A stretch of 64,000 bases of DNA, taken from contig NZ_BJLP01000018.1 of the NCBI RefSeq assembly GCF_006538705.1, positions 1 through 64,000 of the forward strand, read 5' to 3'. The position numbers and the translations under genes are program-made. Below are positions 1,924-27,364 of the stretch, one piece after another. Within the stretch, counting starts at the first letter, position 1. Each line of letters begins with the position of its first letter. A model generated the notes under the pieces. The model saw nothing but the letters and a program-made list of their open reading frames with translations, made no database searches and had not been told where the DNA came from. The DNA comes from Cellulomonas uda (lineage in GTDB: Bacteria; Actinomycetota; Actinomycetes; Actinomycetales; Cellulomonadaceae).

Positions 1924-3618
1924 ATGGCGACGCTCGTCGTACCCGGGGTACAGGTCGAGACACGGTTCGACGTGCTGCCGCCGCTGCCCGCCTCGTCGGG
2001 CGTGGTCGGCATCGCCGGCATCGTCGACCGGCCGCCCGCCCCCGCCGCGCTGGTCGGCCTCTCACGAGCCGCGGAGATCACCGGCGCCCTCGGGCCCGGG
2101 ACCGTCGCGTCCGCGCCCGAGATCGTGCACGCCCTGGCCAACGGCGCGTCCGAGGTGCTCGTCGCGCCCGTCGGGGGCGGCGGTGCCGCGTCGCTCGTGC
2201 TGCGCAACGCGGTGTCCACCGACGCGGTGCTGCTGCGCGCGCGGTCGGTCGGCACGTGGGCGCACCAGGTCGCGGTGGACGTGCGCACCGTGACGAACGC
2301 CGCGGGCGAGACCGTCCGCGTGAGCCTGCGCGTGTTCCGCGCCGGGCAGGTCGTCGAGGAGTTCACGGACCTCGTGGTCGAGCCCGGCTCGCACCAGGAC
2401 CTGTTCGACACGATCAACACCCGCTCGCTGTACCTCGTCGCGCTCGACCCGTCGCTCGCGGACGCGCTGCCCGCCGCGGGGACGTACGTGATCCCGGCGG
2501 ACGGGACCGGCGTCGTCGTGCCCCGCTCGGGCGCCGCGCAGACCCTGCTCACGCTGTTCGCGGAGCCCGGAGTCGACCCGGAGGGCCTCACGGTCGAGCT
2601 CCTGTCGCCCTCGGCGGACAACGTGCGCGTGCGCGTGCTGCGCGACGGTGCGCAGGCCGAGGAGTTCACGCGCCTGACGATGAACCCCGACTCGGCGAAC
2701 TACCTGCCCGCCGTCGTGCTGCGCGAGAGCGCGCTGATCCACGTGCGGCAGGCCTCGTCCCTGGCCGGGCCGGACCGGCTCCCCGTGGCGATCGCGCCCA
2801 CCCCGCTCGCCGGGGCGACGTCCCCGAGCGCCGCCGACTACCAGGCGGCGATCGACCTGCTGGCGACCGACCCGCGCATCAGCCTCGTCGCCGCGTCCAT
2901 CGAGCCGACGCGCGGCGAGACGTTCGTCGCGACCGTGCACCAGGCCCTCGTCGCGCACGCCGTGGCGCAGGCCGACGCCGGCGCGCCGCGCATCGCGTTC
3001 GGCTCCGTGACCCCCGCCGAGCAGGGCAGCCTCGACCGGATCCGCGACCACGCCGCCGGCGTGCGCAACCGCCGGTTCGTGCTCGTCACACCCGCGGGCG
3101 CGGCGGGCGCCGTGCTGGGCGCGGTCGCGCGCACCGGGCCGTCCGTCTCCCCGACGTTCAAGCCCGTGCCGCTGTTCGGCATCCCGCCCGCCCGCTACAC
3201 CGACAGCGAGCTCAACCGGCTGCTCGGCCCGACACACAACGCGCTCGTCGTCGCCGACCGGTCGGGCCGCGGCGTGATCGTGCTGCGCGGGCTGGACACC
3301 AGCGGCGACCAGATCTCCGTCACCCGCGTCGCGGACGCGTGCGTGCGCGAGGTCAAGGCCATCGCGGAGAACTTCATCGGCCAGCTCAACACCGTCGACG
3401 CCCGCACGGCCCTGCGCCAGCAGATCGTCGCGACGTTCACGCGCATGGAGCGCGCGGGCGAGCTCGTGCCGTCGACCGACGGGACCGACCCCGCGTTCCT
3501 CGTCGACGTGTACTCCACGCAGCTCGACTTCGCGCAGGGCAACGTCCGCATCGACATCGCGGTCCGCCCCGTGCGCGCCATCGACTTCGTCTACGCCACC
3601 ATCCGCGTGAAGAACTGA
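1924..3618 (+). CDS. Contractile tail sheath protein
   Basis: A 564-residue sheath subunit of a phage-tail-like contractile particle. It begins MATLVVPGVQVETRFD, the usual N-terminal arm of sheath proteins. Its C-terminal part (about 430-564) carries the conserved sheath end: VLRGLDTSGDQISVTRVAD, then a helix ending FIGQLNTVDARTALRQQI, and a final strand with IDIAVRPVRAIDFVYATI. Two immunoglobulin-like insertions (about 100-170 and 190-260) share the pattern VRV-LR-G-EEFT-L, suggesting a duplicated decoration domain. The start at 1924 is chosen for its AGGAGGA site; the frame is open further upstream. The tube gene follows 10 bases later. The 185-base gap before it holds GTGACGCGC direct repeats near 1791-1820 and no convincing promoter. 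Confidence 0.9.
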   Translation: MATLVVPGVQVETRFDVLPPLPASSGVVGIAGIVDRPPAPAALVGLSRAAEITGALGPGTVASAPEIVHALANGASEVLVAPVGGGGAASLVLRNAVSTDAVLLRARSVGTWAHQVAVDVRTVTNAAGETVRVSLRVFRAGQVVEEFTDLVVEPGSHQDLFDTINTRSLYLVALDPSLADALPAAGTYVIPADGTGVVVPRSGAAQTLLTLFAEPGVDPEGLTVELLSPSADNVRVRVLRDGAQAEEFTRLTMNPDSANYLPAVVLRESALIHVRQASSLAGPDRLPVAIAPTPLAGATSPSAADYQAAIDLLATDPRISLVAASIEPTRGETFVATVHQALVAHAVAQADAGAPRIAFGSVTPAEQGSLDRIRDHAAGVRNRRFVLVTPAGAAGAVLGAVARTGPSVSPTFKPVPLFGIPPARYTDSELNRLLGPTHNALVVADRSGRGVIVLRGLDTSGDQISVTRVADACVREVKAIAENFIGQLNTVDARTALRQQIVATFTRMERAGELVPSTDGTDPAFLVDVYSTQLDFAQGNVRIDIAVRPVRAIDFVYATIRVKN

Positions 3619-3628
3619 GAGGCGTGCC

Positions 3629-4009
3629 ATGCCCACCGTGTACGCAGCCAACGAGAGCTCCGTCCTGGTCAACGGGACGCCCGTCGAGGGGGTGCGCTCC
3701 GTCGAGCACCGCTCGCTCGTGGCCCGCTCCGACCTGTACGCGATCGGCTCGTCCGAGCGCATCGGCGTCATCACCGGCGGTCGCAGCGTCGAGGGCCGGA
3801 TCCGCGTCGCGTCGTCGGCCCCCGACCTGGACGCGCTCGTCGGCGACGCGTTCTTCCAGATCACCGCGCCGCTGCGGCAGGGCGAGACCACCGTCACGGT
3901 GAGCTTCGACGAGTGCCTGCTCACCGAGAAGTCGTTCGCGATGAGTGCGGGCGGGCACGGCGAGACGGTCTACGCGTTCACCGCGACACGCGTGCGCGAG
4001 GAGCGGTGA
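3629..4009 (+). CDS. Tail tube protein (inner tube)
   Basis: A 126-residue, beta-rich protein directly after the sheath, the standard place for the inner tube subunit. The sequence has alternating strands without charged clusters (NGTPVEGVRSVEHRS, VITGGRSVEGRIRV, TTVTVSFDECLLTEKS), and its length fits small Hcp/gp19-like tube proteins. There is a single tube gene, whereas Afp/PVC-type particles carry two or more. Assignment rests mainly on position, size and strand pattern. Confidence 0.65.
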   Translation: MPTVYAANESSVLVNGTPVEGVRSVEHRSLVARSDLYAIGSSERIGVITGGRSVEGRIRVASSAPDLDALVGDAFFQITAPLRQGETTVTVSFDECLLTEKSFAMSAGGHGETVYAFTATRVREER

Positions 4010-4021
4010 GGTCGGACGGTC

Positions 4022-5389
4022 ATGGGTGCTGCGGTCCAGCTCGTCGCCGGGCAGGTGCGGGTCGGCGACGCGACGTTCCCCGGAGGGCTGCTGCCCGACG
4101 GGCGCGTCGCCGTGCTGGGCGCACGCCTGCGCCGGTTGCGGCTGCGTGAGCGCGACGACCTCGTCGCGCTCGCCGCGGAGCTGACCGGTCCCGACGCGGT
4201 GCGCACGCTCGCGCGCCTCGTGCTCGCGGCCGCCTGCGGGACGGGCAGCACGGGCGACGACGAGACGCGCGCCGCGCTCGAGGCCGTGGCGCTGCACCTG
4301 GCCGGTGCGGAGCACGAGGGCGCTCTGGTCCGCACACGTCTGCTCGCGACCCGGGCAGCGGGGGCTGCGGGCGGCGACCTCGCCGCCGCGGACGCCGACG
4401 ACCTCGCGGGCCGCCTCGCGCACGCGGTGACGGACGACGACGGGTGGACCAGGATCGCGCTGGACCCCGAGGCCCACGTGGCGCCGCGGACGCCCGACGA
4501 CGTGCGCGACCACCTGGCGGCAGGGCTCCTCGCCCGCGCGGGTGAGGCGCTGGACCCCGGCCTCGCGCGTGTGCTGGTGCTGGCCGCACCGGACGGCCCC
4601 GCCGACGCCGGCACGTGGGTACCCGACGCTGCGCCCGCCGCGGGCGGTTTGACGCCGCCGGCCGACCCTGACGACCCGCCCGGTCCGACCGGCTCTCCGG
4701 CGGCCGTTCGCGCTCCGCTCGGCACGCCGGACGACCGCACGTGTCCGCCCGCGGACGCCCGCGACGCCGTCCCGTGCGACGGCGCGTCCCCGCTCCGGCC
4801 GGGACCGGTCGGCGGACGAGCGTCGACGGACGGGCGCTGGTCCGCCGTGCGGTCGGCTTCCCGGCAGCAGGCCGAGCAGGCTGGACATGACGACGGTGCG
4901 TCGGCGCTCACCTCGACGCCGGGCGGTGCCGCGGCGGTCCGCCCCGCGTCCGCCCCCGCCGAGCGGCACGGCGCGGCGCTCCACGCGCGCCCGGACGCCG
5001 CGCACGGCCGGGCGGCGACGGCGACGGGAGCCCCGCTGCCGGTGCCGCACGCGACGCTCGACCGGTGGGGCGCGCCGGACGGTCACGCGTGGCCGACCGC
5101 GCCCGGACCGTCCACCGCGTCCGACGCGACGGTCCGCGGGCCAGGACGGGCGACCACGCAGCCCCGCGCGGCCGCCGCACCCGGGGCTCCCGGCCCCGGC
5201 ACCCTCGTCCCCGGCTCCCTCGTGACGACGGGGCGCGCGCCGGGCCGGCCGCTCGACGACCGCTCGCCCGCCCCCGCGCGGCCCGCCTGGACCTCCGACG
5301 TCGCCGCCCCGGGCGGTGAGCCCGTCGACACCGACGCCCTCGCCCGCGCGCTGCACCGCGCGGCCGACCTGCGCGGGGTGCGGCGATGA
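4022..5389 (+). CDS. Cluster protein with helical head and long disordered tail
   Basis: A 455-residue protein not recognised by sequence. Residues 1-190 look folded: an initial beta hairpin (VQLVAGQVRVGDATFPGG) followed by Ala/Leu-rich helices. From about 195 to 430 it is rich in Pro, Ala, Gly and Asp with no regular pattern, so probably disordered, and it ends in a short helix (DTDALARALHRAADLRGVRR). In contractile phages the slot between tube and hub adaptor encodes tail assembly chaperones and the tape measure; the head could play a chaperone role, but this is inference. Its TGA overlaps the next ATG (ATGA). Confidence 0.55.
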   Translation: MGAAVQLVAGQVRVGDATFPGGLLPDGRVAVLGARLRRLRLRERDDLVALAAELTGPDAVRTLARLVLAAACGTGSTGDDETRAALEAVALHLAGAEHEGALVRTRLLATRAAGAAGGDLAAADADDLAGRLAHAVTDDDGWTRIALDPEAHVAPRTPDDVRDHLAAGLLARAGEALDPGLARVLVLAAPDGPADAGTWVPDAAPAAGGLTPPADPDDPPGPTGSPAAVRAPLGTPDDRTCPPADARDAVPCDGASPLRPGPVGGRASTDGRWSAVRSASRQQAEQAGHDDGASALTSTPGGAAAVRPASAPAERHGAALHARPDAAHGRAATATGAPLPVPHATLDRWGAPDGHAWPTAPGPSTASDATVRGPGRATTQPRAAAAPGAPGPGTLVPGSLVTTGRAPGRPLDDRSPAPARPAWTSDVAAPGGEPVDTDALARALHRAADLRGVRR

Positions 5390-6090
5390 GCATCCCGACC
5401 CTGCCGTCCGCCCCCGCACCCGGTCCGGAGCAGGGTGCCCGCCCCATGCCGGTGATCGGCGACGTCACCCTCACGGCCGCGCAGCGCGTCGACCACGCGC
5501 TCGACGGCGGCTTCGTCGACGTCCCCGTCCTCGGCCTGCCGGGGCACGCGCAGCAGCGCTCGGGTCGCCCGAGCCACCGGGTCGCGATCGCGGCGGTGCT
5601 CGCGGGGCCCACCGCGCTGGCCGACCTCGGCGCGCTCCAGACGCTCGCCGCGTCGGGCGAGCCGACGACCTTCACCGCGGACATCGTCACGGCGCTCGAG
5701 CTGCAGCAGGTGGTGGTCACGCGGCTCGCGGCGAGCGAGGTCGCCGGGCGGCCCGGCGTGGTCGAGGTGCTGGTCGAGCTGGCCGAGGACCCGCCCCTGC
5801 CCCCGCCCGCGCAGCTCGCGGGGTTCGGCGGGCTCGACGACTTCGGGCTGGGCGACCTCGGCTTCGACACGGACCTGCTCGACGACCTGTCCGGTCTCGC
5901 GGACGACGTCGCCGGCGCTGTCGAGGGCGCGCTCGCCGCCGTCGACGCGCTGTCCGCCCTGTCCGGGCTCGCGTCGTTCGACTTCGACGGCGTCCTGGCG
6001 CCGGTGCAGGACCTGCAGCGCTCGATCGAGACCGCGGGCGACCAGCTCGGCACCGCGCTCGACGCGCTCGGGCAGGTGTTCGGCTCATGA
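5386..6090 (+). CDS. Hub adaptor, DNA-circularisation-like tail protein
   Basis: A 234-residue protein. Residues 20-130 resemble the N-terminal domain of Mu gp43-type 'DNA circularisation' proteins and baseplate adaptors: a strand RPSHRVAIAAVLAG, a spacer, then ELQQVVVTRLAASEVAGRPG and VEVLVELAED, where adaptors list their beta-strand core. Residues 145-230 are acidic helices rich in Asp and Leu. In such particles this protein connects the tube end to the hub. It overlaps both neighbours by 4 bases (ATGA), so translation is coupled. The family assignment is moderate. Confidence 0.55.
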   Translation: MSIPTLPSAPAPGPEQGARPMPVIGDVTLTAAQRVDHALDGGFVDVPVLGLPGHAQQRSGRPSHRVAIAAVLAGPTALADLGALQTLAASGEPTTFTADIVTALELQQVVVTRLAASEVAGRPGVVEVLVELAEDPPLPPPAQLAGFGGLDDFGLGDLGFDTDLLDDLSGLADDVAGAVEGALAAVDALSALSGLASFDFDGVLAPVQDLQRSIETAGDQLGTALDALGQVFGS

Positions 6091-7097
6091 CCCTCGCGAC
6101 CGGCGCCACCGTCACGCTCGACGACCTGCGCTACACCGTCCAGATCCGCTCGGTCGCGGCCGAGCTCGTGCTGCTGCCCGGCGTGAACCGCGCCGAGGTC
6201 GCGATCGCGGCGGGGGTCGACGTGCCCGCGGCCGCCGGCGCGCGCGCGAGCGTCGAGCTCGACGGCGGCGACGGTACGGCCGTCGTGCTCACCGGCACCG
6301 TCGACCACGTCGAGCGCACGACGAGCGGCGCGGTCGTCGTCGTGACCGACGCGGGTGCCGCGCTCGCCGCGACCCGGCCCTCCGAGACGTACAACGGGCT
6401 CACCGGCGTGCAGGTGGTCGGCAAGCTCGCCGACCTCGCGTCGGCCGACACCGGGCAGGTCGCGGCGCTCACGCAGACCGCCGCGTACGTCGCGGACGCG
6501 CGGCGCACCGCTGCCGAGCACGTCGCGGCGATCGCGCGGCGGTCCGACGCGGTCGCCGCCGTGGACGCCGAGGGGCGCGTCACCGTGGTCGCGTGGCCGG
6601 TCGGCGTCGCCACCGCCGCGATGCGGCTCGACCGCGAGTTCACGTCGTTCACCACGTCCGCGCACACGCCCGCGCACGAGTTCACGCCTGTGGGCGCGGG
6701 CGGGTCCGGCGCCGCCCAGGCACCCGACGCGTGGGTGCCCAGCACGGACCCCCTGACCGGCGCCGACGAGCCCGACGGGACGCGGACCTGGTCCCCCGCC
6801 CCCGTCCTGCGCACCCGCAGCGACGTGGACCTCGCGGCCCGCGGCGAGTCCTCCCGGCGCGGTGCCGCGACGGCGCGCATGCGCGGGACGTGCTGGCTGC
6901 AGCCCGCGCGCCGACCCGGCGACGTCGTGCGCATCGACGAGACCACCGACCCCGCGCAGTCCGGCCCGTGGCTCCTGACCACCGTGCGGCACGAGCTGGC
7001 ACCGGGCGTCGCGCGCACCACGCTCGCGGGCGTCGCGGCCGGCGCGTCGGACGACCTGCTCGGCGGGCTCGCGGGAGCGCTCGGGGGGCTGCTGTGA
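6087..7097 (+). CDS. Baseplate hub protein (gpD / gp27-like)
   Basis: A 336-residue homologue of the phage late-control gpD/gp27 hub. It starts with a strand-rich domain with VQIRSVAAELVLLPGVNRAEV and continues with the gpD-type feature ETYNGLTGVQVVGKLADLA, followed by a helix and the second barrel. The C-terminal part contains the typical GTCWLQPARRPGDVVRIDE and the closing strands WLLTTVRHELAPGVARTTLAG. The hub forms a trimer below the tube and receives the spike encoded by the next gene. It overlaps that gene by 4 bases (GTGA). Confidence 0.75.
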   Translation: MTLATGATVTLDDLRYTVQIRSVAAELVLLPGVNRAEVAIAAGVDVPAAAGARASVELDGGDGTAVVLTGTVDHVERTTSGAVVVVTDAGAALAATRPSETYNGLTGVQVVGKLADLASADTGQVAALTQTAAYVADARRTAAEHVAAIARRSDAVAAVDAEGRVTVVAWPVGVATAAMRLDREFTSFTTSAHTPAHEFTPVGAGGSGAAQAPDAWVPSTDPLTGADEPDGTRTWSPAPVLRTRSDVDLAARGESSRRGAATARMRGTCWLQPARRPGDVVRIDETTDPAQSGPWLLTTVRHELAPGVARTTLAGVAAGASDDLLGGLAGALGGLL

Positions 7098-7744
7098 CCG
7101 ACGTGCTGTACGACGCCGTCGCGCGCATCGCGCGCCACGAGGCCGACGCGCGCTCGTGGGTCAGCGTCGCCGTCGTCACCGAGGTGCACACGACCGCCGC
7201 CGGCTCGCCCGACCACAGCGTGAGCGTGCGGCTGCGGGACACCGCGGTCGTCGTCCCGCGGGTCCCGGTCGCGGTGGGCGCGCTCGGGTTCGTCGCCACG
7301 CCCGCGGTCGACGACCTCGTCGTCGTCGCGTTCGCCGACGGGGACCCGCACGCGGGCGTCGTCGTCGGGCGGCTGTACCACCGCGACCTCGCACCGCCCG
7401 AGCACGGCGACGGCAAGGTCGTCCTGCAGCTGCCACCCGGCGGGAAGGACGTCGACCTGCAGGTCGACGCGAGCGCACCGCAGGTCACGCTCGTCGTCGG
7501 CGACACGAGCATCGAGCTCGCCAAGGACCGCGCGTCGCTCACGATCGGCGACTGCGAGGTCGTCGTCGACGGCGCCTCCCCGGGCAGCGTGACGCTCACC
7601 GCGAAGGACAGCACGCTCACGCTCGGCGGGAACGGCGAGGTGAGCCTCGAGGCGTCGACCCGGCTGACGCTCAAGGCGCCCGAGGTCGTGATCGACGGGT
7701 CGAGCAAGGTCACCGTCTCCGGCGGCCTGGTGGAGGTGAACTGA
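7094..7744 (+). CDS. Central spike protein (gpV / gp5-like)
   Basis: A 216-residue spike. Residues 5-100 form an OB-fold-like domain with VAVVTEVHTTAAGSPDHSVSV, a proline-containing turn, then FVATPAVDDLVVVAFADGD, the last being the usual gpV/VgrG signature ('P.vgd.VvvaF..Gd'). Residues 125-216 are short regular strands (DVDLQVDASAPQVTLVVGD, SVTLTAKDSTLTLGGNG, VVIDGSSKVTVSGGLVEVN), consistent with the trimeric beta-helix needle. Start is GTG at 7094 inside the hub stop codon. Confidence 0.8.
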   Translation: MTDVLYDAVARIARHEADARSWVSVAVVTEVHTTAAGSPDHSVSVRLRDTAVVVPRVPVAVGALGFVATPAVDDLVVVAFADGDPHAGVVVGRLYHRDLAPPEHGDGKVVLQLPPGGKDVDLQVDASAPQVTLVVGDTSIELAKDRASLTIGDCEVVVDGASPGSVTLTAKDSTLTLGGNGEVSLEASTRLTLKAPEVVIDGSSKVTVSGGLVEVN

Positions 7745-8145
7745 TGGGCACCCCCGCCGTGGGCACCGACGCGATGGTCGTCGCGGTCGACACGCACGTC
7801 GTGCTCGTCCCGACGCCCGGCGGGACCGTGCCCACCCCGCTGCCGCACGTGTTCTCCGGCACGATCACCAGCGCCACGTCGTCCACCGTGACGATCGGCG
7901 GCAAGGCCGCCGCGACGCTCGACTCGGTCGCCAGGAACAAGCCCCCGCACGTCGCCACGCCCCCCGGCACCACGTTCCAGTCGCCGCCCTCCGACGAGGG
8001 CACCGTCACGCAGGCCTCGAGCACCGTGACGATCGGCGGCAAGGGCGTCGCCCGTGTCGGCGACCAGGTGACCACGTGCAACGACCCGAGCGACCAGCCC
8101 GTGGGCACGCTCGTCGGACCCGTCGGGACGGTGATGGTCGGATGA
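7744..8145 (+). CDS. PAAR-domain spike tip protein
   Basis: A 133-residue PAAR-like protein that would cap the spike needle. It has the family's paired strands: TITSATSSTVTIGGKAAAT and, later, SSTVTIGGKGVARVGDQVT, with histidines (DTHVV, LPHVF, PPHVATP) and one cysteine (CND) as candidate metal ligands near the tip. Its ATG shares one base with the spike gene's stop (TGATG). No C-terminal toxin extension is present, so effectors must be carried some other way. Confidence 0.75.
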   Translation: MGTPAVGTDAMVVAVDTHVVLVPTPGGTVPTPLPHVFSGTITSATSSTVTIGGKAAATLDSVARNKPPHVATPPGTTFQSPPSDEGTVTQASSTVTIGGKGVARVGDQVTTCNDPSDQPVGTLVGPVGTVMVG

Positions 8146-8594
8146 GCGACGTCCTGGGCACCGACCTGCGCGTGCTGCTCGGCCCGCCCGGCATGGCCGC
8201 GCACGACGCGGCCGCACTCGACCTGCGGCTCGGCGCAGGCCTCGTCGACCGCGCCGCGGACGGCCCGCAGCTCGTCTCGGACCGCCACAACCTGGGTCAG
8301 GCACTTGTGCTGCGGCTGCTCACGCCGCGCGGCACCCTCGCCGGGCTCGGGCACGCCGCGTACGGGTCGCGTCTGCACGAGCTGGTCGGCGAGCGCAAGG
8401 ACGAGTCGAGCCGCGCACGGTGCAAGGCGTTCGTCCTCGAGGCGGTCGCCGCCGAGCCGCGCGTGCTCGACGAGGTCGTCGACCTGACGTTCGACATTCC
8501 GTCGGAGGGACCGTCCGAGCTGCGGTTCCTGCTCACGGTCCAGCCCGTCGAGGGCGGGCAGCCCGTGTCGGTCGACCTGGGGGTGGAGCTGTGA
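8142..8594 (+). CDS. Baseplate wedge protein, gp25/GPW family
   Basis: A 150-residue gp25-like (GPW) protein. The characteristic features are LVSDRHNLGQALVLRLLTPR, then GELXXLGHAAYGSRLHELVG-type sequence and a helix with LDEVVDLTFDI, matching the family's core 'l.NL..ll.T..GE....p.yG..l..l'. The classical EPR triad is not evident. It nucleates sheath assembly at the baseplate in T4. It overlaps neighbours on both sides by 4 bases. Confidence 0.75.
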   Translation: MSDVLGTDLRVLLGPPGMAAHDAAALDLRLGAGLVDRAADGPQLVSDRHNLGQALVLRLLTPRGTLAGLGHAAYGSRLHELVGERKDESSRARCKAFVLEAVAAEPRVLDEVVDLTFDIPSEGPSELRFLLTVQPVEGGQPVSVDLGVEL

Positions 8595-11649: not shown

Positions 11650-11658
11650 GGAGGCGCC

Positions 11659-12156
11659 ATGAAGGCCACGTTGCACCTGGTGCTGAGCGACCACGACGGG
11701 TCCGTCGTCGACGAGCGACGCGCCCACAACACCGTGATGGCGAGCGGCGCGCGGATCATCGCGGACCTGTTCGCGGGGGTCGGCAACCCCATCACCCACA
11801 TGGGCGTGGGCACCAACGACGACTCGCCCGAGGACGTCTCGGTGACCGCGCTGACGAACGGGGGCGGGGACGACGCCGCGCTGGTGGGCGCGACGACGAC
11901 GCCCGTCGCCGCGTCGGCGTTCACGGCCACGCTCGTGCCGGAGCGGCGCGTCGTGCGGGTGCGGGTGCGCGCGACGCTCCCGGACGACGCCGCCGTCGGG
12001 CGCATCCGCGAGGCGGGGCTCGTCTCGCAGGGCGACACGGACGCCGTCCTCTACAACCGCGTGGTCTTCGCGCCCGTCGACAAGGGCGACGACCACGAGC
12101 TGACGCTGTTCTGGGAAGTCGAGTTCCCGTACGGCGACCTCCAGTGGCTCACCTGA
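11659..12156 (+). CDS. Fibre- or fringe-like tail protein, 165 residues
   Basis: The protein begins with a strand ('ATLHLVLSDHDGSVVDER'), then AHNTVMASGARIIADLFAG and ITHMGVGTNDDSP. The pattern of 'hN.v...G...ia.l..g....i..m.vGt' recurs in small tail-fibre or baseplate-exterior proteins of phages and contractile particles. The rest is alternating strands, ending VEFPYGDLQWLT. It starts 9 bases after gpI, with a GAGG ribosome binding site inside the gap. Role in surface attachment is inferred from position. Confidence 0.45.
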   Translation: MKATLHLVLSDHDGSVVDERRAHNTVMASGARIIADLFAGVGNPITHMGVGTNDDSPEDVSVTALTNGGGDDAALVGATTTPVAASAFTATLVPERRVVRVRVRATLPDDAAVGRIREAGLVSQGDTDAVLYNRVVFAPVDKGDDHELTLFWEVEFPYGDLQWLT

Positions 12157-12173
12157 GTCGAAGGGAACCGACC

Positions 12174-13121: not shown

Positions 13122-13148
13122 CGGCCCACCCGCGCGAGGAGGACGACC

Positions 13149-14831: not shown

Positions 14832-14834
14832 CGG

Positions 14835-17215: not shown

Positions 17216-17234
17216 CCGCGGTGAGGAGGCTCGC

Positions 17235-20200
17235 ATGACGCTGCTGGACGACCTGCAGGCGCTCGACCTGTCCGCCGTGGTCGGCGGGAAGCTCGACATC
17301 GCCGCGGCGCTCGACGTGTCCGATCTCCAGGCGCTGCTCGGCGACGGCGCGGTCGCGACCGTGCTCGGCGACCTGGGCACCGCGGTGAGCACCGCCGTGG
17401 CGGCCGTCGAGGACCCGTCCACGCTCGTCGAGCCGCTCGCCGCCGCGCTGCTCGAGCTGCTCGACTCGATCGGCGCGGACCTGCCGCTCGCGCAGTACGC
17501 GAGCGCCGTCGCGGACGGCGCACGCATCGTCGCCGGGCTGGTCGGCGCGCTCTCGGGTGACCCGCTGCGCCTGAGCATGCCCGGCACCGGCGACGCGGGC
17601 GACGCGTTGGCACGCGTCGCCGACGGGTTCGGCGACCAGGCGAGCGCCGTCGCGGGCGGTGCGGAGCAGCTCCGGTCGCTCGTGCAGCTGGTGGACCGCG
17701 GGCTGCCGCGCGACCCCGCCGCGCTCGTCGGCGTCGCCATGCAGATCCTGCTCCCGTTCGGCACGGCGGCGGTCGACCCCGTTCGGGGCTGGGCGCGCAC
17801 CGTGGACGCGCAGCTCGACCGGGTGCGCATCGACCCGCGGCTCGGCGAGGGTCTCGTCGTCGCCCTGGGCCGCCTCCGGGCGGCGGCGGACGCGGGTGAC
17901 GTCGCCGCGGTGCGCACGGCGCTCGCGACGCTCGCCGAGGTCCGCGCCGCGACGGTCACCCAGCTCGCCGCGGCGCTGCGCACGGTCGCCGGCGTGCTGT
18001 CCGCGACGCGCGTCGGCGACCTCGCCGCTCCCGTGCGGGCCCTGCGCGGCGCGCTGCACACGGTCGAGAAGGGCGCGCTCGACCAGCTCGACGAGTGGCG
18101 CGGGATGCTCGCCGACGCGCGCGGGTTCGTCGACGGCATCGACCCGCAGGCCGCCCTCGACGCGGCGCGCGACCTGCTCGACGACGTCGAGCGCGCGGCG
18201 CGCGAGACCGTGCTCGGCGTGGTCGACCAGTCGGTCGAGGTGATCAAGGGCTGGGTGCGCGACCTGCTGCGCGAGCTGCCGCTGCGTCCGCTGCGCCAGG
18301 AGCTGTCGGAGGCGATCGCCCGGCTCGCGCGGGTGATCGACGACGCGGACCTCGACGCACCCGTCGCGGTCGTGCGGGACACCCTCACGCAGGTCGCGCA
18401 GACGCTCGCGGAGGCGGACCCCGCGGCGCTCGTCGCGTCCGCCGTCGAGCGGCTCGAGGGCGTCGTGCGGGACCTCGTGGACGCGGTGCGCGACGCGCTG
18501 GGCGGGATCGCCGAGGGTGTCGAGGCCGTCGCGGACGAGGCGAGCGAGGTGCTCGGGCGTGCGGTCGACGGGCTGCGCGCGTTCTCCGAGGCGGCGCACG
18601 CGATCGCCGACGCGGTGGGCGGCACGCAGATCGCCGACACGGCGGCCGCGATCGCCGCCGAGCTGCGAGAGCTGCGCGAGGAGGTCGGCGAGGTGGTCTC
18701 GTCCGTCGAGCTGCCCGAGCCGTTGCGCGCGGGCGTCGACCAGCTCGTCGGGCTGCTCGACTCGATCGACCTCGACGAGGCCGTGCGCCGCCCGCTCGAG
18801 GACGCCGCGTCCCGGCTCACCGTCCCGCCGGCTGTCGGCCAGACCGTGCGCGACGGTCTGCAGGCCGTGAGCGACGCGATCTCCTCGCTCGTCCCCGCCG
18901 ACCTGACGGCCGAGCTCGACGCGCTGCTCGCGGACGCGTTCGACCAGCTGCGGTCGATCGACGTCTCGTCGCTCACCTCGGGCGTCACGCAGCTCCTCGA
19001 CGACGCGGCCGGTGCCGTCGAGGGCGTCCACCTGACCGAGCTCGTCGCGCCCGCGAGCGACGTGTTCGCCCAGGTCCTCGGCGCGGTCGACCGCGTCCAC
19101 CCGCGCACGCTGCTCAGCCCGGCGATCGACCTGTACCGCCAGCTCACCGGCGCGATCCCGGTGCCCGCACCGGACGCGATCGGTGCGCGCGTCGGCTCGG
19201 TCACCGCGCAGGCCGGGGAGGCCGCGGCGCGAGCGGTCGTCGAGCCCACGCTGAGCGCGGTGGGCGCGGGCGGCTCGGCACCCACCACGGACCGGCCCCA
19301 GCCGACTCCCCCACCGGACCTGCGGCTCGGCGACGTCGTGCGGCTCGTCGGCTACCTGCCCGCGCGCCTGCGCGAGGCGCTCGAGGACCTGGGTACCGGT
19401 CCGGTCGGCGAGGTGCTCGCGACGATCGACGACACGCTCACGGGCACCGCCGCCGCGCTGCGTGCGACGCGTGACCGGCTGCTCGGGCTGCAGGCGCAGG
19501 TCGAGGCCGGTCTCGCCGCGGCGCTCGCGCCCGTCGGCGCCGCGCAGCTCGACGCGCAGCTCGCGCTGCGCGGGTCGGCCGCGCTGAGCGCGGGCGGGCT
19601 CGACGTCGCGGTGTCCGTCGAGCTCGTCGGCGGCGTCTCGCCCGGTGCGCTGCTGCGCGCCGTGGACGGTGAGCGCGCGATCGTCCTCGACGGCACGCGC
19701 GGGCTCGCCGGCGCGCTCGTCGGACCCGTGGCCGACGACCTCGAGAGCGTGGCCGCGCTGCTCGAGGCCGCGCTCCCGGCGGGCGTGCTCGCGGACGCCG
19801 ACGGCCTGCTCGCGGCACTCGACCCGGAACCGCTCGCCGCCGAGCTCGACGCGCTGTTCGCCTCGATCGTCGCGGCGGTCCCCGGGTTCCTCACGGTGGC
19901 CGGGTCCGCCGTGACGGAGCTGGCCGACCGCGTGCGCGCGCTCGTCGAGGAGTTCAACCCCGGCTCGCTCGCGCAGCGGTACCTCGCGGTCGTCGAGGTG
20001 CTGCGCGACGAGCTCGCGCTGCTCGACCCCGCGCGGCTGGCCGACGAGCTCGGTGAGGTGCACGCGGTCGTGCGCGCGACGATCGCGGCGTACGACCCCG
20101 CGGTGCTCGCCGCGCAGCTCGACGCGCTGCTCGGCCAGGTGGCGGGTGCGATCCGTGGGCTCGACCCGGCGCACCTGATGCCGGACCTGTCGGGCGTCGA

Positions 20201-20468
20201 GGCGCAGATTGCACGCATCGCGCAGGTGCTGCCGCTGGAGGCCCTGGACGGCGTGGGCACCCAGCTCGAGGCCGTCGGCGACCAGCTGCGCGCGCTCGAC
20301 GTCGAGGGGATGCTCGCGATCGTCGACGCGATCCCGCCGCAGGTCGCGGACGGTGTCTCGACGCTCGTCGAGGCGATCCGTGACGAGCTCGTCGCGCTGC
20401 TCGAGTCCATCCGGTACGCGGGCGCCTCGGCGTCGGCGTCCGTGTCCGTGTCCGCCTCCGTGGGGTGA
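17235..20468 (+). CDS. Giant helical protein, tape-measure candidate
   Basis: A 1077-residue protein, almost wholly alpha-helical, Ala/Leu/Asp/Val-rich, with heptad-like spacing throughout. A Pro-rich break near residue 690 (DRPQPTPPPDLRLGDVVRLV) splits it into halves, and it ends in a Ser/Ala/Val low-complexity tail. No obvious membrane span or catalytic motif. A long helical protein of this type is what a tape measure looks like, though tape-measure genes usually lie upstream of the hub, whereas Afp14-type genes follow the fibres. The start has a GAGGAGG site 5 bases upstream. The GTG of the next gene overlaps its stop. Confidence 0.45.
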   Translation: MTLLDDLQALDLSAVVGGKLDIAAALDVSDLQALLGDGAVATVLGDLGTAVSTAVAAVEDPSTLVEPLAAALLELLDSIGADLPLAQYASAVADGARIVAGLVGALSGDPLRLSMPGTGDAGDALARVADGFGDQASAVAGGAEQLRSLVQLVDRGLPRDPAALVGVAMQILLPFGTAAVDPVRGWARTVDAQLDRVRIDPRLGEGLVVALGRLRAAADAGDVAAVRTALATLAEVRAATVTQLAAALRTVAGVLSATRVGDLAAPVRALRGALHTVEKGALDQLDEWRGMLADARGFVDGIDPQAALDAARDLLDDVERAARETVLGVVDQSVEVIKGWVRDLLRELPLRPLRQELSEAIARLARVIDDADLDAPVAVVRDTLTQVAQTLAEADPAALVASAVERLEGVVRDLVDAVRDALGGIAEGVEAVADEASEVLGRAVDGLRAFSEAAHAIADAVGGTQIADTAAAIAAELRELREEVGEVVSSVELPEPLRAGVDQLVGLLDSIDLDEAVRRPLEDAASRLTVPPAVGQTVRDGLQAVSDAISSLVPADLTAELDALLADAFDQLRSIDVSSLTSGVTQLLDDAAGAVEGVHLTELVAPASDVFAQVLGAVDRVHPRTLLSPAIDLYRQLTGAIPVPAPDAIGARVGSVTAQAGEAAARAVVEPTLSAVGAGGSAPTTDRPQPTPPPDLRLGDVVRLVGYLPARLREALEDLGTGPVGEVLATIDDTLTGTAAALRATRDRLLGLQAQVEAGLAAALAPVGAAQLDAQLALRGSAALSAGGLDVAVSVELVGGVSPGALLRAVDGERAIVLDGTRGLAGALVGPVADDLESVAALLEAALPAGVLADADGLLAALDPEPLAAELDALFASIVAAVPGFLTVAGSAVTELADRVRALVEEFNPGSLAQRYLAVVEVLRDELALLDPARLADELGEVHAVVRATIAAYDPAVLAAQLDALLGQVAGAIRGLDPAHLMPDLSGVEAQIARIAQVLPLEALDGVGTQLEAVGDQLRALDVEGMLAIVDAIPPQVADGVSTLVEAIRDELVALLESIRYAGASASASVSVSASVG

Positions 20469-23400
20469 CGACGATGACGACGACGACCGACCGGCCCGCG
20501 CACGTCGCGGGCGTCACCGACCGGGTGGACCTGGGCGACGCGGGCGTGCTCGAGGTCGAGCGCGACGCGGAGTCCGGCGTGCTCGTCGCGCTGCGCGGCG
20601 GTGGCCGCGACTACCTCACGGTCGGCCACGACGGCACGCGCGTCTGGCACGGGGTCTGCACGACGAGCGAGCGCGTCGCCGAGGGCACGCTGGACCGCCG
20701 GGTGCGGCCCGTGACGGGCGCGGTGTGGACCGAGCACTACCGCTGGTCGGGCGACCACCTGGTGCTCGTCGACGGCGTCGAGGTACGCCGCGACGCGAGC
20801 GGCCGCGTCGTCGCGTGCCTGCCCGGCGGCCCGGACCCGGCACCGGCCGGGCACCGCTGGCTCTACACGCACGACGAGCGCGGGCTCGTCGAGGTGCGCG
20901 GCCCCGGCCGCGAGCGCCGCGTCGTCCTCGGGCCGGACGGTCGTGCGCGCGAGGTGCACGACGAGTCCGGGGCCACGGTGCTCGCGCACGACGCGCGCGG
21001 CCACCGGCTCCTGGCGGCGCGGCCGGCGGGCGACACGGTGGACGACGAGGGCCGCACCTGGGTCACGCGTGCGCCCGACGGACGCGTGCGCTGCGTGTTC
21101 CTGTGGGACGGCATGCGCTGCCTCGCACGGGTGGACGGCCCGCTCGGCAGCCCGCTGGCCGCGGTCCTGAGCCTGGACCCGTCGGGCACCCCGGTGCGCG
21201 TCGTGACGGCCGACGGTGCGCGGCGGCTGCCGCGTGACGCGTACGGCGAGGGGCTGCTCGACGTGCCCGACGTGCCGGGGCTGTTCGGGGGGCGCGTGCA
21301 CGCCGGCGTCGTGCACCTCCCGCTGCGGCGGCTGGACCCGCGCACGGGCGCGTTCTGCGAGCCGGACCCGTGGCACGGCGGCGACGACGACCCGCGCCGG
21401 CCCGCCGGGTACACCGGCCCCGTGCCGGTCGAGAAGGAGCCGCGCTCGGCGTTCGAGGTGTGCCGCGGCGACCCGGTGGGTCGCTCCGACCCGACGGGCG
21501 GGGTCTCGGCGGGTCTCGTGCTGTCGACGCTGACGTGGTCGTTCCAGAACAACATCATGACGTTCTTCGGGATCGACTGGTGGTTCAACCTGTTCCTCAG
21601 CCTGCTCGCGGCACCGTTCGCGGGCGACAGGTACGACTTCTTCTCCTCGACCGGGCTGTCGTCGACCGACCGGCTGGGGTCGTTCGGCGTGCGCCGCGAC
21701 GGGTTCATGAACGTCATCACGGGTGGCCGCGCGTTCACCACGCAGCACATCGTGTGGTCCCCGGACAGCGAGTTCGCGCTCCTGCAGCGCGGCGAGGTGG
21801 TCGACCCGCGCGGCGCGTACGAGCCCACGCACTACGGCACGGTCCTGTCGCTCGCGCCGACGGGGGCGCCGACGTCGTTCCTGGCGTGCGGCCCGACGAC
21901 GATGCCCGGGCTCCCGGGCAACCTGACCTCCTGGTCCCGCCACGGCGGGCTGGGCGTGCCGGCCGCACCCGGCACGCTCACGCCGTGGTTCCCGTCCGGC
22001 GGGCTGCACCTGGACACGCCCCGCATGGACACGCGGCACGACGTCGACGCGACGCTCACCGAGCTGCGACCGGGCCCGGTGGGGGTCGGCGACTTCGAGC
22101 AGCGGTCGGTGCTCACGTCGAGTGCCGCCACGGGGCTCGCGGCAGGGGCGCTCGTGCTGGTCGACGACGGCACCGCGCTCGCGATCGCGACCGTGGTGGG
22201 CGTCGTCCCGGTGCCCGGTGGCGAGCGCGTGCAGCTCGCCGAGGAGCTCACGCTCACCGGCCCGTCGCTGCGCGTGACGCCGCTGGAGGCCGCGCCCGCG
22301 TCGTCGGAGTCCCGTCCCGCGGGAGCGCCCGCGGCGTCCCTCGACGCGCGCGGCACGACGACGACGTACGCGCCGGGCGACCTGGTGCGCGTCCGGGCCG
22401 CGGGCGGGCAGGTGCTCGTCGCGCGCGTCGCGCACCTGGAGGTGCGGGTGCCGCTCGAACGCGCGCTGCCCGCAGCGCTCGCGGGGCCGATCGCGGTCGC
22501 GACCGGCGTCGTGGGTCCCACCGCGACCGTCACGGCGACCGGCACGACGCTCGACTTCGCTCCCGCCACGCCGCCGGGCCGCGGCACCACGGGGCTGCTC
22601 GTCGGCGGTACGACGACGGGCGCGCGGGTCGAGACGGACCCGACCGGCTCCACCACCACGGTCGACGTGGCGGCACCCGCGGGCACCACCGGCTTCCAGA
22701 CCGTGACCGCGAGCACGGTCCTCGGCACCCGGACCGGCGCGGCCGAGACGGACCCCGCGCTCACGTACACCCCGCTCACGGCGGGCTCGGCACCCGACGG
22801 CTCCGCCGGTCTCGTCGTCCTGCGTGTCGAGTCCGGGGGCACCGCGCACGCCCGCGTGGTGCCCGCTGCGCCGACGCACGACGTCGTCGTCCTCGACCGG
22901 CCGCTCGTCGGCGCCGGGCCGTTCACCGTCGAGCGGTGGCGCACGCGAGGCACCGCGCTCACGTCGTTCACGCTCGCGCAGGTCCTGTCCGTCGTCGTGC
23001 CCTCGCCCGAACGGTTCGAGGGCATGCCCCTGCTGCTCACGCGGGTCGCCGGGGAGCCGCCCACCGTCACCGGCGCGCTCACGGGCGTCGACGTCACGGC
23101 GGGCACGACGACCCTGACGACGCCGACGGCCGCGGCGGGGCTGCGCGCGGGCTTCCCGGTCCGCGTCGGCACCGAGCACACCGCGGTGCGCGACCTGCGG
23201 TGCGACGTGACGTTCACGCCCGCGGTCGACCTCGGTGCGGGCGACCTGCGCCTCGTGCGGCTCGAGCCGACGGGCTTCGCGTACGACGCGGTCGTCGCCG
23301 CCGCGGACGCGCTCGACCTGCGTGCGACGGTGACGGTCGCCGGGACGCCGGTCGACGCGCCGTTCCCGCGGCTGCGCCCCGGCGACCTGGTCGAGGTCAC

Positions 23401-26400
23401 GTCCGGCGGCGCGACGACGTGGCACCGGGTCACCGCCGAGGCCGCCGGGCGCGTCACGGTGACGGTCGCGACGACCGCGCTGACCCCCGGCGCGGCCGCG
23501 ACCGTGCGCCAGGCCGCCGTCGGCGACCCGGACACCGGGTGCCCCTCCCTCGGGATCAGGGGCACGCGCACGGGAAGCGGCGCGACGACGACGGCGACGT
23601 TCTCGCTGTGGCGGTCCGACGACCTCCCCGCGGGGACCGCGGCGCTCGGCATCGTCGACGGCGACGTCACGCACCCCGTGCAGCAGAACGGCGGCGCGCT
23701 CGTGCGGTCCGTGACGTTCTCGACGACGTTCACCGCGTCGGCGGTCGACGTGGAGGTGTTCACGCACGTGACGACGGCGGTCCTGGCGTCCGTGACGCGC
23801 GACGGGGGCGTGCTGCTCGCCGAGACGCCGCCGGGTGCCGGCACCATCACGACCGCGCCCGGCCAGTCGGTCGTCGCGGTGGCGCTCGAGGCGGTGGGCG
23901 ACGCCCGCACCGTCACGCTCGGCCCCGGGACGCTGCTCGTCCCCGAGGAGGAGACCACCGAGATCGACCGCGGCCAGTCCCTGTCGAACCACGAGCTCAC
24001 GCACACCGTCCAGTACGCGCGGTGGGGGCCCCTGTGGTTCTGCGCGTTCCCGATGATCGCCCTCGAGCTGCCGGCGATCCTCACGTCCGACACCGAGCTG
24101 CCGGAGTTCTCCGCGTTCCTCGACGCGAGCGTCGCGGCGGGCGCGGACGCGCTGTGGGACGTCACGATCCCGCAGCGCGGCGGGGTGTCCCTCGCGGAGG
24201 GCGACACGCTCCAGGTGGTGCAGGGCGCACGGATCGTCGAGGCCGAGGTCCGCTCGTCGTCGGGCGACGTGGTGCGCGTGCGCGTCTCGTCGGGCACGGT
24301 GCCGACCGGCCGCGTCGCGGTCCGCAAGAAGCAGAGCGCCGCGGGGTGGGACGTGTCGATCGCGATCCTCGACCTCATGACGCACGGCGGTCTGGTGAAC
24401 CTGCTCGCCGGGTCCACGTGGGGCGGGATCTTCTGGCTCGTCGGCAAGGCGTTCTACGGGCTCGGACGCGCGATCGGGGGCACCGGGGACCTGTACGCGG
24501 GGACCGTGACGGTCGGGGGCACGACGATCACGCTCGCCCGGGCCGGCGACGCCGAGAAGATCCCGGTGACCGGGCGCGTCACCGTCCGGCAGGGCGAGGA
24601 CACCGTCATCCGCTCCGCGACCCGCGCCGGGCAGACGCTCTCGCTCGGCGAGCCGGTCACGTTCACGGGCGACGTGCGCGTGGCCGCGTACGACTCGCAC
24701 GAGCCCGGCAGCGCGTTCGACTGGTACGACTACCGCGCGGGGACGGTCGACGCCGCGAACCACTTCGCGGTGGACCTGGGCGCGGGTCACGGCCTCGAGC
24801 CCGAGGACCGGGTCGTCGTGCGGTACCGGTCGGGACGCCCGTTCCGCACCGACGTCCTCGCGGTGGCGGGCGGGCGCGTCGAGCTCGCGACCCGGGTCCC
24901 CGTCACCGGCGACGAGCTGTCGGTGCGCATCGCGCGCGTCGGCGCGAGCGACCCGCTCGGCAACGCCGACTCCGCGGCGATGGTCGAGATGGGCATGGGG
25001 TGGATGAAGTGGCTCTTCGACCCGTACGGGCAGGTCGAGCCCGCGGTCGCACCGGGCGACTGGACGCGCTGGCTGCTGCGCGTGATGCGCTGGCTGCTCG
25101 GCACGCAGAACTTCTCGCTGCTGCCGTTCGGGTACGTGTGGTGGGGGCGGCTGTTCGGCCTCCAGAAGGAGCACGAGGCACCGATCGAGCAGGAGGCGTC
25201 GAGCGAGTCCGGTGACGTGTACTCGCCGCTCGCCCGGCTCACCGGCGAGGTCGAGCGCGGCGGCGCGATCGCGGACCGGCGCGCGACCGTGGGCGACGTC
25301 ATGCGGTACCGCTTCACGCCCGGGGACCGCTCGCGCACGTTCGTGACGCGCGACCGGCTCGACACGCCCGGCGTGCACCTGTCGCGGACCCTGCGCGTGA
25401 TGCCCACCCGCTCATCCACGGGCACGTCCGCCGACCCGAACGGCGCGGTCCGCGCCGACGCCGCCACGCCCGACCCCGGCCGGTTCGTCTCCGCGGTCCT
25501 CACGGACCACGAGGGCGACACCGACCCCCGCGCCCTCCCCCTCAACGGCGGCGGGACGCCGGACGCGCTCGGGTACCGAGCGTCCGCGCTCGGCTCGGTC
25601 CCGGTCAGCGCGCGGCTCGAGCGCAACGAGAGCGTCTACGCCGCGTTCACCCGCCCCGGCGACCACCGGGTCACCACCCGCAACGGGATCGCCGGCGCCA
25701 CCGAGGCCGTCGAGGCGCACGCCAAGGACCTGCAGACGCTGTGGTTCGACGTCACGGTCGCGGACGTCACCGTCACCGCCGCAGGCCGCGCGCTGGACGC
25801 GACGGCACCCGGCACGAGCGACCGTCTCGTGCTCGTCCCCACGCAGTCCGTGGACGTCACGACGACGCCCGGGGCGCCCCGCGTCCACCGGGTCACCGCG
25901 CTCGACCCGGCCGGCTCCGTGACCGTGCGCGACGCGCGGCTGACCGCGGTGTCGGCCACCACCGCGCCCGTCCCCGTCGAGGTGAGCCGGCACTACGCCG
26001 CGACCGACGGGCGGTACACCGGCGGGCTCGCGTTCGCGGGCATGCACCTGTCGCGCGACCTCGACGTGCCCGTGCGGACGTTCACCGTCGAGGTCGTCAC
26101 GACCGTGCCCCTGCGCGCCGCCGCACGCGCGGACGCGGCCGAGGTCACCACGCTCGCCCGCGGCACCGAGGCGTTCCTGCTGGTCCCCGCGAACGTGACC
26201 GTGCCGCCAGCCGTCGCGACGATCGGGGGCGCACCGCCGCCCGCCGGCACCCCGGACCCGGTCGCTCGCGCCGACGCACCCGACGCGGCGGCGTTCCTCG
26301 GGCCGACCGGTTCCGCGTGGCGCGTCCTGTTCCCCGCCGCCGCCACCCCCGGCGCCTACGTGCTCACCGTGAGCGTGGGCGACGGGACGACGTCGCACAC

Positions 26401-26428
26401 CCTGACGTGCGCTGTGACCGTCAGCTGA
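20465..26428 (+). CDS. Rhs-like giant protein with HELTH metalloprotease-type motif
   Basis: A 1987-residue protein starting with a GTG that overlaps the previous stop. Residues 60-340 resemble an Rhs/YD-repeat region: repeated strand-turn elements (WLYTHDERGLVEVRG), then LFGGRVHAGVVHLPLRRLDP and the core-ending SDPTGG (DPTG at 342-345). A hydrophobic block follows at about 350-385. The next 1500 residues are mostly beta-rich Thr/Val/Ala repeats. At 1176-1180 stands HELTH, the zinc-protease HExxH signature, within NHELTHTVQYARWGPLWF, then hydrophobic segments (about 1310-1340 and 1510-1560). It is a probable effector or payload of the particle; there is no partner immunity gene. The third zinc ligand cannot be placed. 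Confidence 0.55.
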   Translation: MTTMTTTTDRPAHVAGVTDRVDLGDAGVLEVERDAESGVLVALRGGGRDYLTVGHDGTRVWHGVCTTSERVAEGTLDRRVRPVTGAVWTEHYRWSGDHLVLVDGVEVRRDASGRVVACLPGGPDPAPAGHRWLYTHDERGLVEVRGPGRERRVVLGPDGRAREVHDESGATVLAHDARGHRLLAARPAGDTVDDEGRTWVTRAPDGRVRCVFLWDGMRCLARVDGPLGSPLAAVLSLDPSGTPVRVVTADGARRLPRDAYGEGLLDVPDVPGLFGGRVHAGVVHLPLRRLDPRTGAFCEPDPWHGGDDDPRRPAGYTGPVPVEKEPRSAFEVCRGDPVGRSDPTGGVSAGLVLSTLTWSFQNNIMTFFGIDWWFNLFLSLLAAPFAGDRYDFFSSTGLSSTDRLGSFGVRRDGFMNVITGGRAFTTQHIVWSPDSEFALLQRGEVVDPRGAYEPTHYGTVLSLAPTGAPTSFLACGPTTMPGLPGNLTSWSRHGGLGVPAAPGTLTPWFPSGGLHLDTPRMDTRHDVDATLTELRPGPVGVGDFEQRSVLTSSAATGLAAGALVLVDDGTALAIATVVGVVPVPGGERVQLAEELTLTGPSLRVTPLEAAPASSESRPAGAPAASLDARGTTTTYAPGDLVRVRAAGGQVLVARVAHLEVRVPLERALPAALAGPIAVATGVVGPTATVTATGTTLDFAPATPPGRGTTGLLVGGTTTGARVETDPTGSTTTVDVAAPAGTTGFQTVTASTVLGTRTGAAETDPALTYTPLTAGSAPDGSAGLVVLRVESGGTAHARVVPAAPTHDVVVLDRPLVGAGPFTVERWRTRGTALTSFTLAQVLSVVVPSPERFEGMPLLLTRVAGEPPTVTGALTGVDVTAGTTTLTTPTAAAGLRAGFPVRVGTEHTAVRDLRCDVTFTPAVDLGAGDLRLVRLEPTGFAYDAVVAAADALDLRATVTVAGTPVDAPFPRLRPGDLVEVTSGGATTWHRVTAEAAGRVTVTVATTALTPGAAATVRQAAVGDPDTGCPSLGIRGTRTGSGATTTATFSLWRSDDLPAGTAALGIVDGDVTHPVQQNGGALVRSVTFSTTFTASAVDVEVFTHVTTAVLASVTRDGGVLLAETPPGAGTITTAPGQSVVAVALEAVGDARTVTLGPGTLLVPEEETTEIDRGQSLSNHELTHTVQYARWGPLWFCAFPMIALELPAILTSDTELPEFSAFLDASVAAGADALWDVTIPQRGGVSLAEGDTLQVVQGARIVEAEVRSSSGDVVRVRVSSGTVPTGRVAVRKKQSAAGWDVSIAILDLMTHGGLVNLLAGSTWGGIFWLVGKAFYGLGRAIGGTGDLYAGTVTVGGTTITLARAGDAEKIPVTGRVTVRQGEDTVIRSATRAGQTLSLGEPVTFTGDVRVAAYDSHEPGSAFDWYDYRAGTVDAANHFAVDLGAGHGLEPEDRVVVRYRSGRPFRTDVLAVAGGRVELATRVPVTGDELSVRIARVGASDPLGNADSAAMVEMGMGWMKWLFDPYGQVEPAVAPGDWTRWLLRVMRWLLGTQNFSLLPFGYVWWGRLFGLQKEHEAPIEQEASSESGDVYSPLARLTGEVERGGAIADRRATVGDVMRYRFTPGDRSRTFVTRDRLDTPGVHLSRTLRVMPTRSSTGTSADPNGAVRADAATPDPGRFVSAVLTDHEGDTDPRALPLNGGGTPDALGYRASALGSVPVSARLERNESVYAAFTRPGDHRVTTRNGIAGATEAVEAHAKDLQTLWFDVTVADVTVTAAGRALDATAPGTSDRLVLVPTQSVDVTTTPGAPRVHRVTALDPAGSVTVRDARLTAVSATTAPVPVEVSRHYAATDGRYTGGLAFAGMHLSRDLDVPVRTFTVEVVTTVPLRAAARADAAEVTTLARGTEAFLLVPANVTVPPAVATIGGAPPPAGTPDPVARADAPDAAAFLGPTGSAWRVLFPAAATPGAYVLTVSVGDGTTSHTLTCAVTVS

Positions 26429-27191: not shown

Positions 27192-27364
27192 CGCCCGTCG
27201 CCGCCCGTCACCGACCGGCCGCCGCGGGCCGGCCACGCTCACCCGACATCGTCGTCACCGCGCCCCTCCGCAGGTTCGACCGCCATGGTCGTCGGGAAGG
27301 AGCGCGCGGCACCGCGCCCAGATACCCCTGGCGCGCCACGGGCACCGGGGGTGCGCCGCGCCCG

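Follow-up and report, generated by a model that had tools for sequence, protein, structure and literature searches.

Can a contractile injection system do without a cargo-loading ATPase of its own? The question is raised by a 64,000-nucleotide stretch of Cellulomonas uda DNA (contig NZ_BJLP01000018.1, positions 1 to 64,000; hereafter the window), in which 17 plus-strand genes at 1924..26428 form a single unit, neighbouring genes overlapping or being spaced by at most 27 bases (Table 1). The unit opens with a sheath gene (ATG at 1924, preceded by GAGGAGG) and lies in a genome of 3.56 Mb. We propose that the unit probably encodes a working contractile injection system derived from a phage tail and belonging to a deep and sporadic lineage, known here from its genes. 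Contractile injection systems as such are already known; what is new in this cluster is a deep, ATPase-free variant, and a natural system lacking the cargo-loading ATPase of the PVC type makes the need for that ATPase directly testable.

A conserved gene order across phyla

Scanning 84,980 species genomes for the sheath returned 11 loci which, with the window and the related genome G033, give 13 carrier genomes; our scans of genomes and viral contigs are pattern-based and can miss distant relatives, so carrier counts are lower bounds. Eleven loci are complete: the window, G033, C. gelida, C. persica, C. xylanilytica, Humibacillus, Phytomonospora, Mycolicibacterium senegalense, Paracoccus ravus, a Syntrophus metagenome-assembled genome (MAG) and a ‘Nitrospina’ MAG. 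In Occultella and a second Syntrophus MAG, the contig ends within the locus. The records of C. gelida, C. xylanilytica and Occultella are taken as identical with genomes G026, G022 and G047, and each enters the count a single time. Gene order is identical across the 11 complete loci, which come from several phyla, with two exceptions in content: PAAR is present in 10 and was not found in Phytomonospora, and the 455-amino-acid (aa) gene is barely or not recognizable in distant loci. At E 1e-3, searches for this gene were negative in Nitrospina, Paracoccus, Syntrophus, Phytomonospora and Mycolicibacterium, with weak matches otherwise in two of these five (E 2e-4 and E 0.005); an open reading frame (ORF) of 414–548 aa occupies its place in four of them.

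The cluster is rare. With the window genome counted each time, a strong sheath match was seen in 5 of 58 relatives, and the cluster in 4 of 36 genomes of the genus, 2 of 396 of the order and 1 of 396 of the phylum; the weak, partial hits in genomes G037, G361 and G204 were set aside as belonging to other sheaths. Between the window and G033, the ratio of nonsynonymous to synonymous substitution rates (dN/dS, NG86) ranged from 0 to 0.44 over the 17 genes and was below 0.29 in 16, the 455-aa gene giving the 0.44. The cluster is thus a conserved unit and not a chance assembly.

The same gene order was found in further Cellulomonas loci, as the original prediction from this sequence had suggested looking for. 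Its view of the lineage as actinobacterial was not supported, given the copies in Paracoccus, the Syntrophus MAGs and the ‘Nitrospina’ MAG. An unrooted FastTree phylogeny of nine concatenated proteins from 12 genomes (Occultella left out) grouped the two Syntrophus MAGs with Phytomonospora and Mycolicibacterium and separated this group from Cellulomonas and Humibacillus. This grouping points to transfer of the cluster between phyla, to be read with caution as three carriers are MAGs.

In the window, the cluster and an adjoining BTAD gene sit with an AI-2E transporter gene on one side and glnE on the other. glnE is present in 39 of 40 genomes, and we examined 30 glnE loci: AI-2E adjoins glnE without the cluster in 17, the cluster end and BTAD gene adjoin glnE in 3 (the window genome, G033 and C. 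gelida, G026), and neither arrangement occurs in 10. The gene arrangement in C. persica matches that of the window; in C. xylanilytica (G022) the AI-2E–glnE pair is intact and the cluster is located elsewhere. The empty sites and the different location in G022 therefore make the cluster an island that occupies at least two sites, and for which no integrase was found.

These results bear on whether the unit is a defective, decaying prophage tail region. Its recognized parts are indeed phage-tail homologs, but the low dN/dS, the same content across phyla and the empty site all speak against decay, and the linked head, packaging and integrase genes of a P2-like prophage are not seen beside it, the neighbours being AI-2E and glnE. 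At five other loci, 10 proteins encoded beside the cluster were scanned with Pfam, and none matched an integrase or head family. No viral relatives turned up in IMG/VR scans with two sheath profiles, the 315-aa protein and the hub adaptor; a tblastn search of phages hit only parts of the sheath (24%) and of gpJ (up to 31%), and the 165-aa protein had a single weak match there (E 8e-3). Plasmids gave no match for the sheath or the 1987-aa protein. We strongly disfavour the decaying-prophage explanation, which has only a very slight chance of being right. The predicted separate, domesticated contractile lineage is borne out by relatives with an empty site and by the lack of head genes and, as follows, of an ATPase.

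No cargo-loading ATPase in the unit

The original prediction had also noted no AAA+ ATPase, capsid, integrase or lysis genes. By Pfam and PHROGs, none of the 17 proteins matched an AAA, integrase or lysis family, nor a head family apart from a weak match of the tube (phrog_9206, E 0.003 over 53 residues; its other best PHROG match was a minor tail family, E 0.017). The Walker A motif GxxxxGK[ST] is in no called gene of the 11 complete loci; its two occurrences there are both in uncalled frames. Because this holds across phyla, the lack of an ATPase is likely ancestral to the lineage. The same two grounds led us to reject the idea that one of the unassigned genes encodes a P-loop ATPase. The 1077-aa protein has an MnmE_helical match (E 0.0026, under the cut-off) and no Walker A; we take this as a match of helical composition.

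The unit might instead be a canonical extracellular contractile injection system (eCIS) whose ATPase and DUF4255 genes were lost or diverged. The order of hub, PAAR and gp25 is held in common, eCIS_core is weakly matched and the hub profile is nearest to the structure 9gtr, but the sheath sequence is very distant from those of known eCIS sheaths, the absence of Walker A from called genes extends over all 11 complete loci, and 8 of the 13 carriers have, elsewhere in the genome and outside this cluster, a DUF4255 gene that scores over the cut-off. We hold such a loss to be quite improbable. The eight carriers (G022, G026, G033, G058, G059, G060, G062 and G065) include several with extra eCIS_core proteins; seven were also searched for AAA, and each has an AAA match within 5 kb of the DUF4255 gene (AAA figures are those among the matches listed and are not used to show absence). 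These carriers therefore appear to hold a canonical eCIS as well. C. gelida and C. persica each hold, away from this cluster, a second sheath and a DUF4255 match; in the genome search of the window genome, no second sheath match was found.

A remote sheath on a partly recognizable baseplate

The sheath scored 24.8 bits against Phage_sheath_1C in hmmscan (cut-off 26.9) and 28.2 bits, a pass, in the genome search. A 10-row sheath profile gave zero PDB matches even at E 10, whereas a control, one canonical sheath of the sister species C. xylanilytica (G022), gave 21 at E 1, including Streptomyces, PVC, Afp, pyocin and gp18 sheaths. Aligned to a canonical eCIS sheath profile, our profile nevertheless reached an hhalign probability of 95 (E 3.6e-8), so that this is a true though remote sheath.

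The original prediction of a complete contractile-tail set in one plus-strand unit stood as to the single unit and, by family, as to sheath, gpD, gpV, PAAR, gp25 and gpJ; tube, hub adaptor and gpI are assigned because of where they lie and how conserved they are. Several Pfam scores of core parts fall under the curated cut-offs, and in hmmscan 4 of 17 proteins pass (gpV, PAAR, gpJ and, barely, eCIS_core). The profiles of tube, gpI and hub adaptor had no credible PDB match; the gpI-place protein matched nothing in Pfam, PHROG, NCBIfam or PDB, and for the hub adaptor Pfam did not find LysM. A FGGLDDFGLGDLGFDT stretch is strongly conserved in this last candidate. The hub scored 28.7 bits against Phage_GPD (cut-off 30.1), and the best solved relative of its profile is 9gtr (E 1.2e-12), which we take as the Streptomyces coelicolor CIS hub, judging from the sister entries 9gts and 9gtp. 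Of the core parts expected of an eCIS, sheath, VgrG-like hub, PAAR, gp25 and gpJ are present, the tube is placed by position only, and hub and spike are separate genes. The P2-like gene order noted in the original prediction was not supported as a distinguishing mark: a canonical-looking cluster of Phytomonospora has VgrG–PAAR–gp25 in the same order, the ORF after gp25 at its gpJ place matching only at E 0.21.

A terminator fold and candidate attachment parts

DUF4255 (PF14065, Pvc16_N) has no match anywhere in the window genome, as predicted for the unit. A terminator is nonetheless present by fold: the structural search of unassigned genes, which the prediction had named as a test against itself, found in the modelled product of 14835–15728 an R2-pyocin-like terminator fold plus an immunoglobulin (Ig)-like domain. 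Foldseek TM-scores are low (about 0.2–0.35 over the whole model), and for residues 169–297 the matches in the VIA list are generic Ig-like folds. On this predicted structure the gene would encode a non-DUF4255 tail terminator.

The 315-aa protein keeps 50–55% identity across five distant loci, and the 560-aa fibre candidate has a conserved N-terminus and a length of 429–594 aa across loci. Cross-matches reveal a common DWN-type segment in these two proteins, suggestive of a duplicated attachment module. The tape-measure candidate is 1077–1097 aa long in all 11 complete loci, a near-constant length as expected for a ruler; its helical nature was judged by eye.

An R-type tailocin, that is, a headless phage tail killing relatives by membrane depolarization and carrying no cargo, would agree with the missing ATPase, the single sheath, the R2-pyocin-like terminator and the phage- or tailocin-type PDB matches of gpJ. 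R-type pyocins and diffocins differ from this cluster, however, which has a PAAR tip, a BTAD regulator and a constant, roughly 2,000-aa Rhs/HExxH protein, shows no lysis family and, with three of its proteins, found no viral relatives in IMG/VR. We judge a tailocin improbable.

A giant Rhs-core/HExxH protein in the cargo place

The original prediction had overlooked the convergent BTAD gene and, in the last gene, an Rhs-like core and a HELxHTxQ motif. This motif is carried by every one of the 11 complete copies of the last gene (1721–2140 aa); HExxH motifs of similar look are known from other Rhs proteins. Among nine orthologs scanned, the Rhs-associated core was found in seven (TIGR03696 at E <=0.01, best 4.6e-5), YD repeats in two and eCIS_core in three. 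The family thus belongs with Rhs-core proteins; the assignment is weak for the window copy (E 0.065, 13.7 bits, cut-off 32.5). The product may be metallopeptidase-like, with putative zinc binding and proteolysis. The gene can be aligned over most of its length across phyla, the five most distant copies being 24–38% identical to it, and in this conservation along its length appears unlike polymorphic toxins. Other eCIS are described as carrying payloads that vary; the constancy seen here suggests that the protein either has a single conserved target or plays a structural part.

A model for a single-cargo system

In the system that we favour, sheath and tube would be built on a baseplate of gp25, gpJ and the gpI-place protein, with a split gpD/gpV hub and a PAAR tip. 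The protein of about 1,080 aa would set the length, the non-DUF4255 terminator would cap the tube, the 165-, 315- and 560-aa proteins may form attachment parts, and the last gene product would be a fixed cargo or spike-borne component. This one cargo could join during assembly via hub, PAAR or tape measure, making an ATPase dispensable. It might be loaded on the spike, as Rhs proteins of the type VI secretion system (T6SS) are, or with the tape measure. For the latter, the Sle1/Sle2 pair is suggestive (PMC13277306). PVC particles assemble without Pvc15 but lack payload (PMC11495950); because the AAA+ ATPase there loads cargo and is not needed for assembly, we infer that this lineage does without it.

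Several results weigh against this model. AAA genes occur in 11 of 11 genomes searched, and a host ATPase could act in trans. The window's last gene is marginal for eCIS_core (DUF4157; 22.5 bits, cut-off 22); in the genome search only the five Cellulomonas copies exceed the cut-off, those of the other eight carriers falling under it (the gene is cut off in two). The predicted fold of its HExxH part (residues 1040–1640) has low confidence (pLDDT 57) and no meaningful Foldseek match, and we rejected it as evidence. The five PDB matches of gpJ all bear phage- or tailocin-type names and none an eCIS name. Tube, hub adaptor, gpI, fibres and tape measure are assigned from order and length.

As to use, the particle might be cell-anchored, T6SS-like or intracellular, as in Streptomyces or haloarchaea, which is compatible with the injection system that we favour. 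No lysis gene was found, and Streptomyces CIS are described as intracellular (PMC12237407) and a haloarchaeal CIS as membrane-bound (PMC11566945), but no membrane-anchor gene was recognized (no genome search aimed at membrane-complex genes was made) and fibre-like genes are present; we consider such use rather unlikely.

More tentatively, and with less than even confidence, the loci may represent a hitherto undescribed class of contractile injection systems across bacterial phyla. Such a system would need no AAA+ loader because its spike or tape measure always bears the same giant metallopeptidase-like protein of Rhs type, and this single-cargo syringe would have been overlooked by surveys that require an ATPase or Afp-like sequences. 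One survey demanded ten core genes (PMC8213781), a criterion that might pass the cluster over because so few of its proteins reach the Pfam cut-off in hmmscan; another, of metagenomes, states that it left out clusters with fibre and tape measure but without ATPase (PMC12210884). In the open literature we recognized no description of the cluster, supplements and the eCIStem and dbeCIS tables, where it may be listed unremarked, lying outside the search.

Relation to known systems

Unlike Streptomyces CIS (CIS-Sc/SLP), the cluster has no AAA ATPase or DUF4255 gene and has a giant Rhs-core protein; sequence search does not link its sheath to theirs, and it has a tape-measure candidate, of which CIS-Sc is reported to have none (PMC12237407). 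In three canonical-looking clusters hub and spike are one gene, against two here. Afp, PVC and AlgoCIS resemble it in module content, the cargo-like gene at the 3′ end and the terminator fold, and differ in that the cluster has one sheath and one tube gene, no AAA+ protein (Pvc15), no DUF4255 sequence, no LysM match and no PDB sheath match. In T6SS i–iii a two-protein sheath and a membrane complex stand against the single full sheath gene here. The cluster resembles T6SS Rhs effectors in that a protein of a contractile system has an Rhs-associated core, and its unit includes a PAAR gene; unlike in those effectors, the Rhs part is short, there is no PAAR fusion and the C-terminal part is conserved, not polymorphic. 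Of the eCIS features given in Geller 2021 (PMC8213781), the AAA+ ATPase (Afp15/Pvc15) and the DUF4255/Pvc16_N terminator were not found, and closeness to known eCIS sheaths is limited to profile–profile similarity. The eBAP5/DUF6519 eCIS of Actinobacteriota are likewise a subtype called previously missed (PMC12923769); unlike them, the 17 proteins have no Pfam match to DUF6519 or Tail_P2_I.

Gene content and flanking genes

Table 1 Genes of the cluster and the adjoining regulator, with window coordinates
Product	Position	Strand	Length (aa)	Basis
Tail sheath	1924..3618	+	564	phrog_279 E 2.7e-22; Phage_sheath_1C E 2.4e-5
Tail tube (inferred)	3629..4009	+	126	Place after sheath and conservation; no credible family match
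Unknown, fastest evolving gene of the unit	4022..5389	+	455	No family
Hub adaptor (inferred by position)	5386..6090	+	234	Conserved FGGLDDFGLGDLGFDT stretch
gpD-like hub	6090..7097	+	335	Phage_GPD E 9.6e-7
gpV-like spike, own gene	7094..7744	+	216	Phage_base_V E 1.1e-5
PAAR tip	7744..8145	+	133	PAAR_motif E 2.1e-10
gp25 wedge	8142..8594	+	150	phrog_975 E 7.5e-12; gp25 family E 2.6e-3
gpJ wedge	8591..10378	+	595	Baseplate_J E 6.1e-22
gpI-place wedge (by position)	10375..11649	+	424	Gene order
phrog_5417 protein	11659..12156	+	165	E 6.4e-18
Baseplate/fibre-attachment candidate	12174..13121	+	315	Conservation; segment common with next gene
Fibre candidate	13149..14831	+	560	Conserved N-terminus
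Tail terminator (predicted)	14835..15728	+	297	Terminator fold plus Ig-like domain
Unknown	15725..17215	+	496	In place in 11/11 complete loci; no family match
Tape-measure candidate	17235..20468	+	1077	Near-constant length; no family
Giant Rhs-core/HExxH protein, fixed cargo or tip candidate	20465..26428	+	1987	HELxHTxQ; Rhs_assc_core
BTAD regulator, convergent, adjoins cluster in Cellulomonas	26421..27242	-		BTAD E 7.2e-14

The BTAD gene adjoins the cluster in all five Cellulomonas loci, downstream of it; in Mycolicibacterium (L025:8671-9474) a BTAD regulator stands upstream. BTAD is among the eCIS shell domains listed in Geller 2021 (PMC8213781). The Humibacillus cluster is flanked by genes for a trypsin-NPHP3/AAA-WD40 protein and a CHAT-domain protein (L017:4661-9004, L027:14671-17133), which recall regulated cell-death signalling; the AAA_16-type domain there lies outside the unit and was seen in that one locus only among those scanned.

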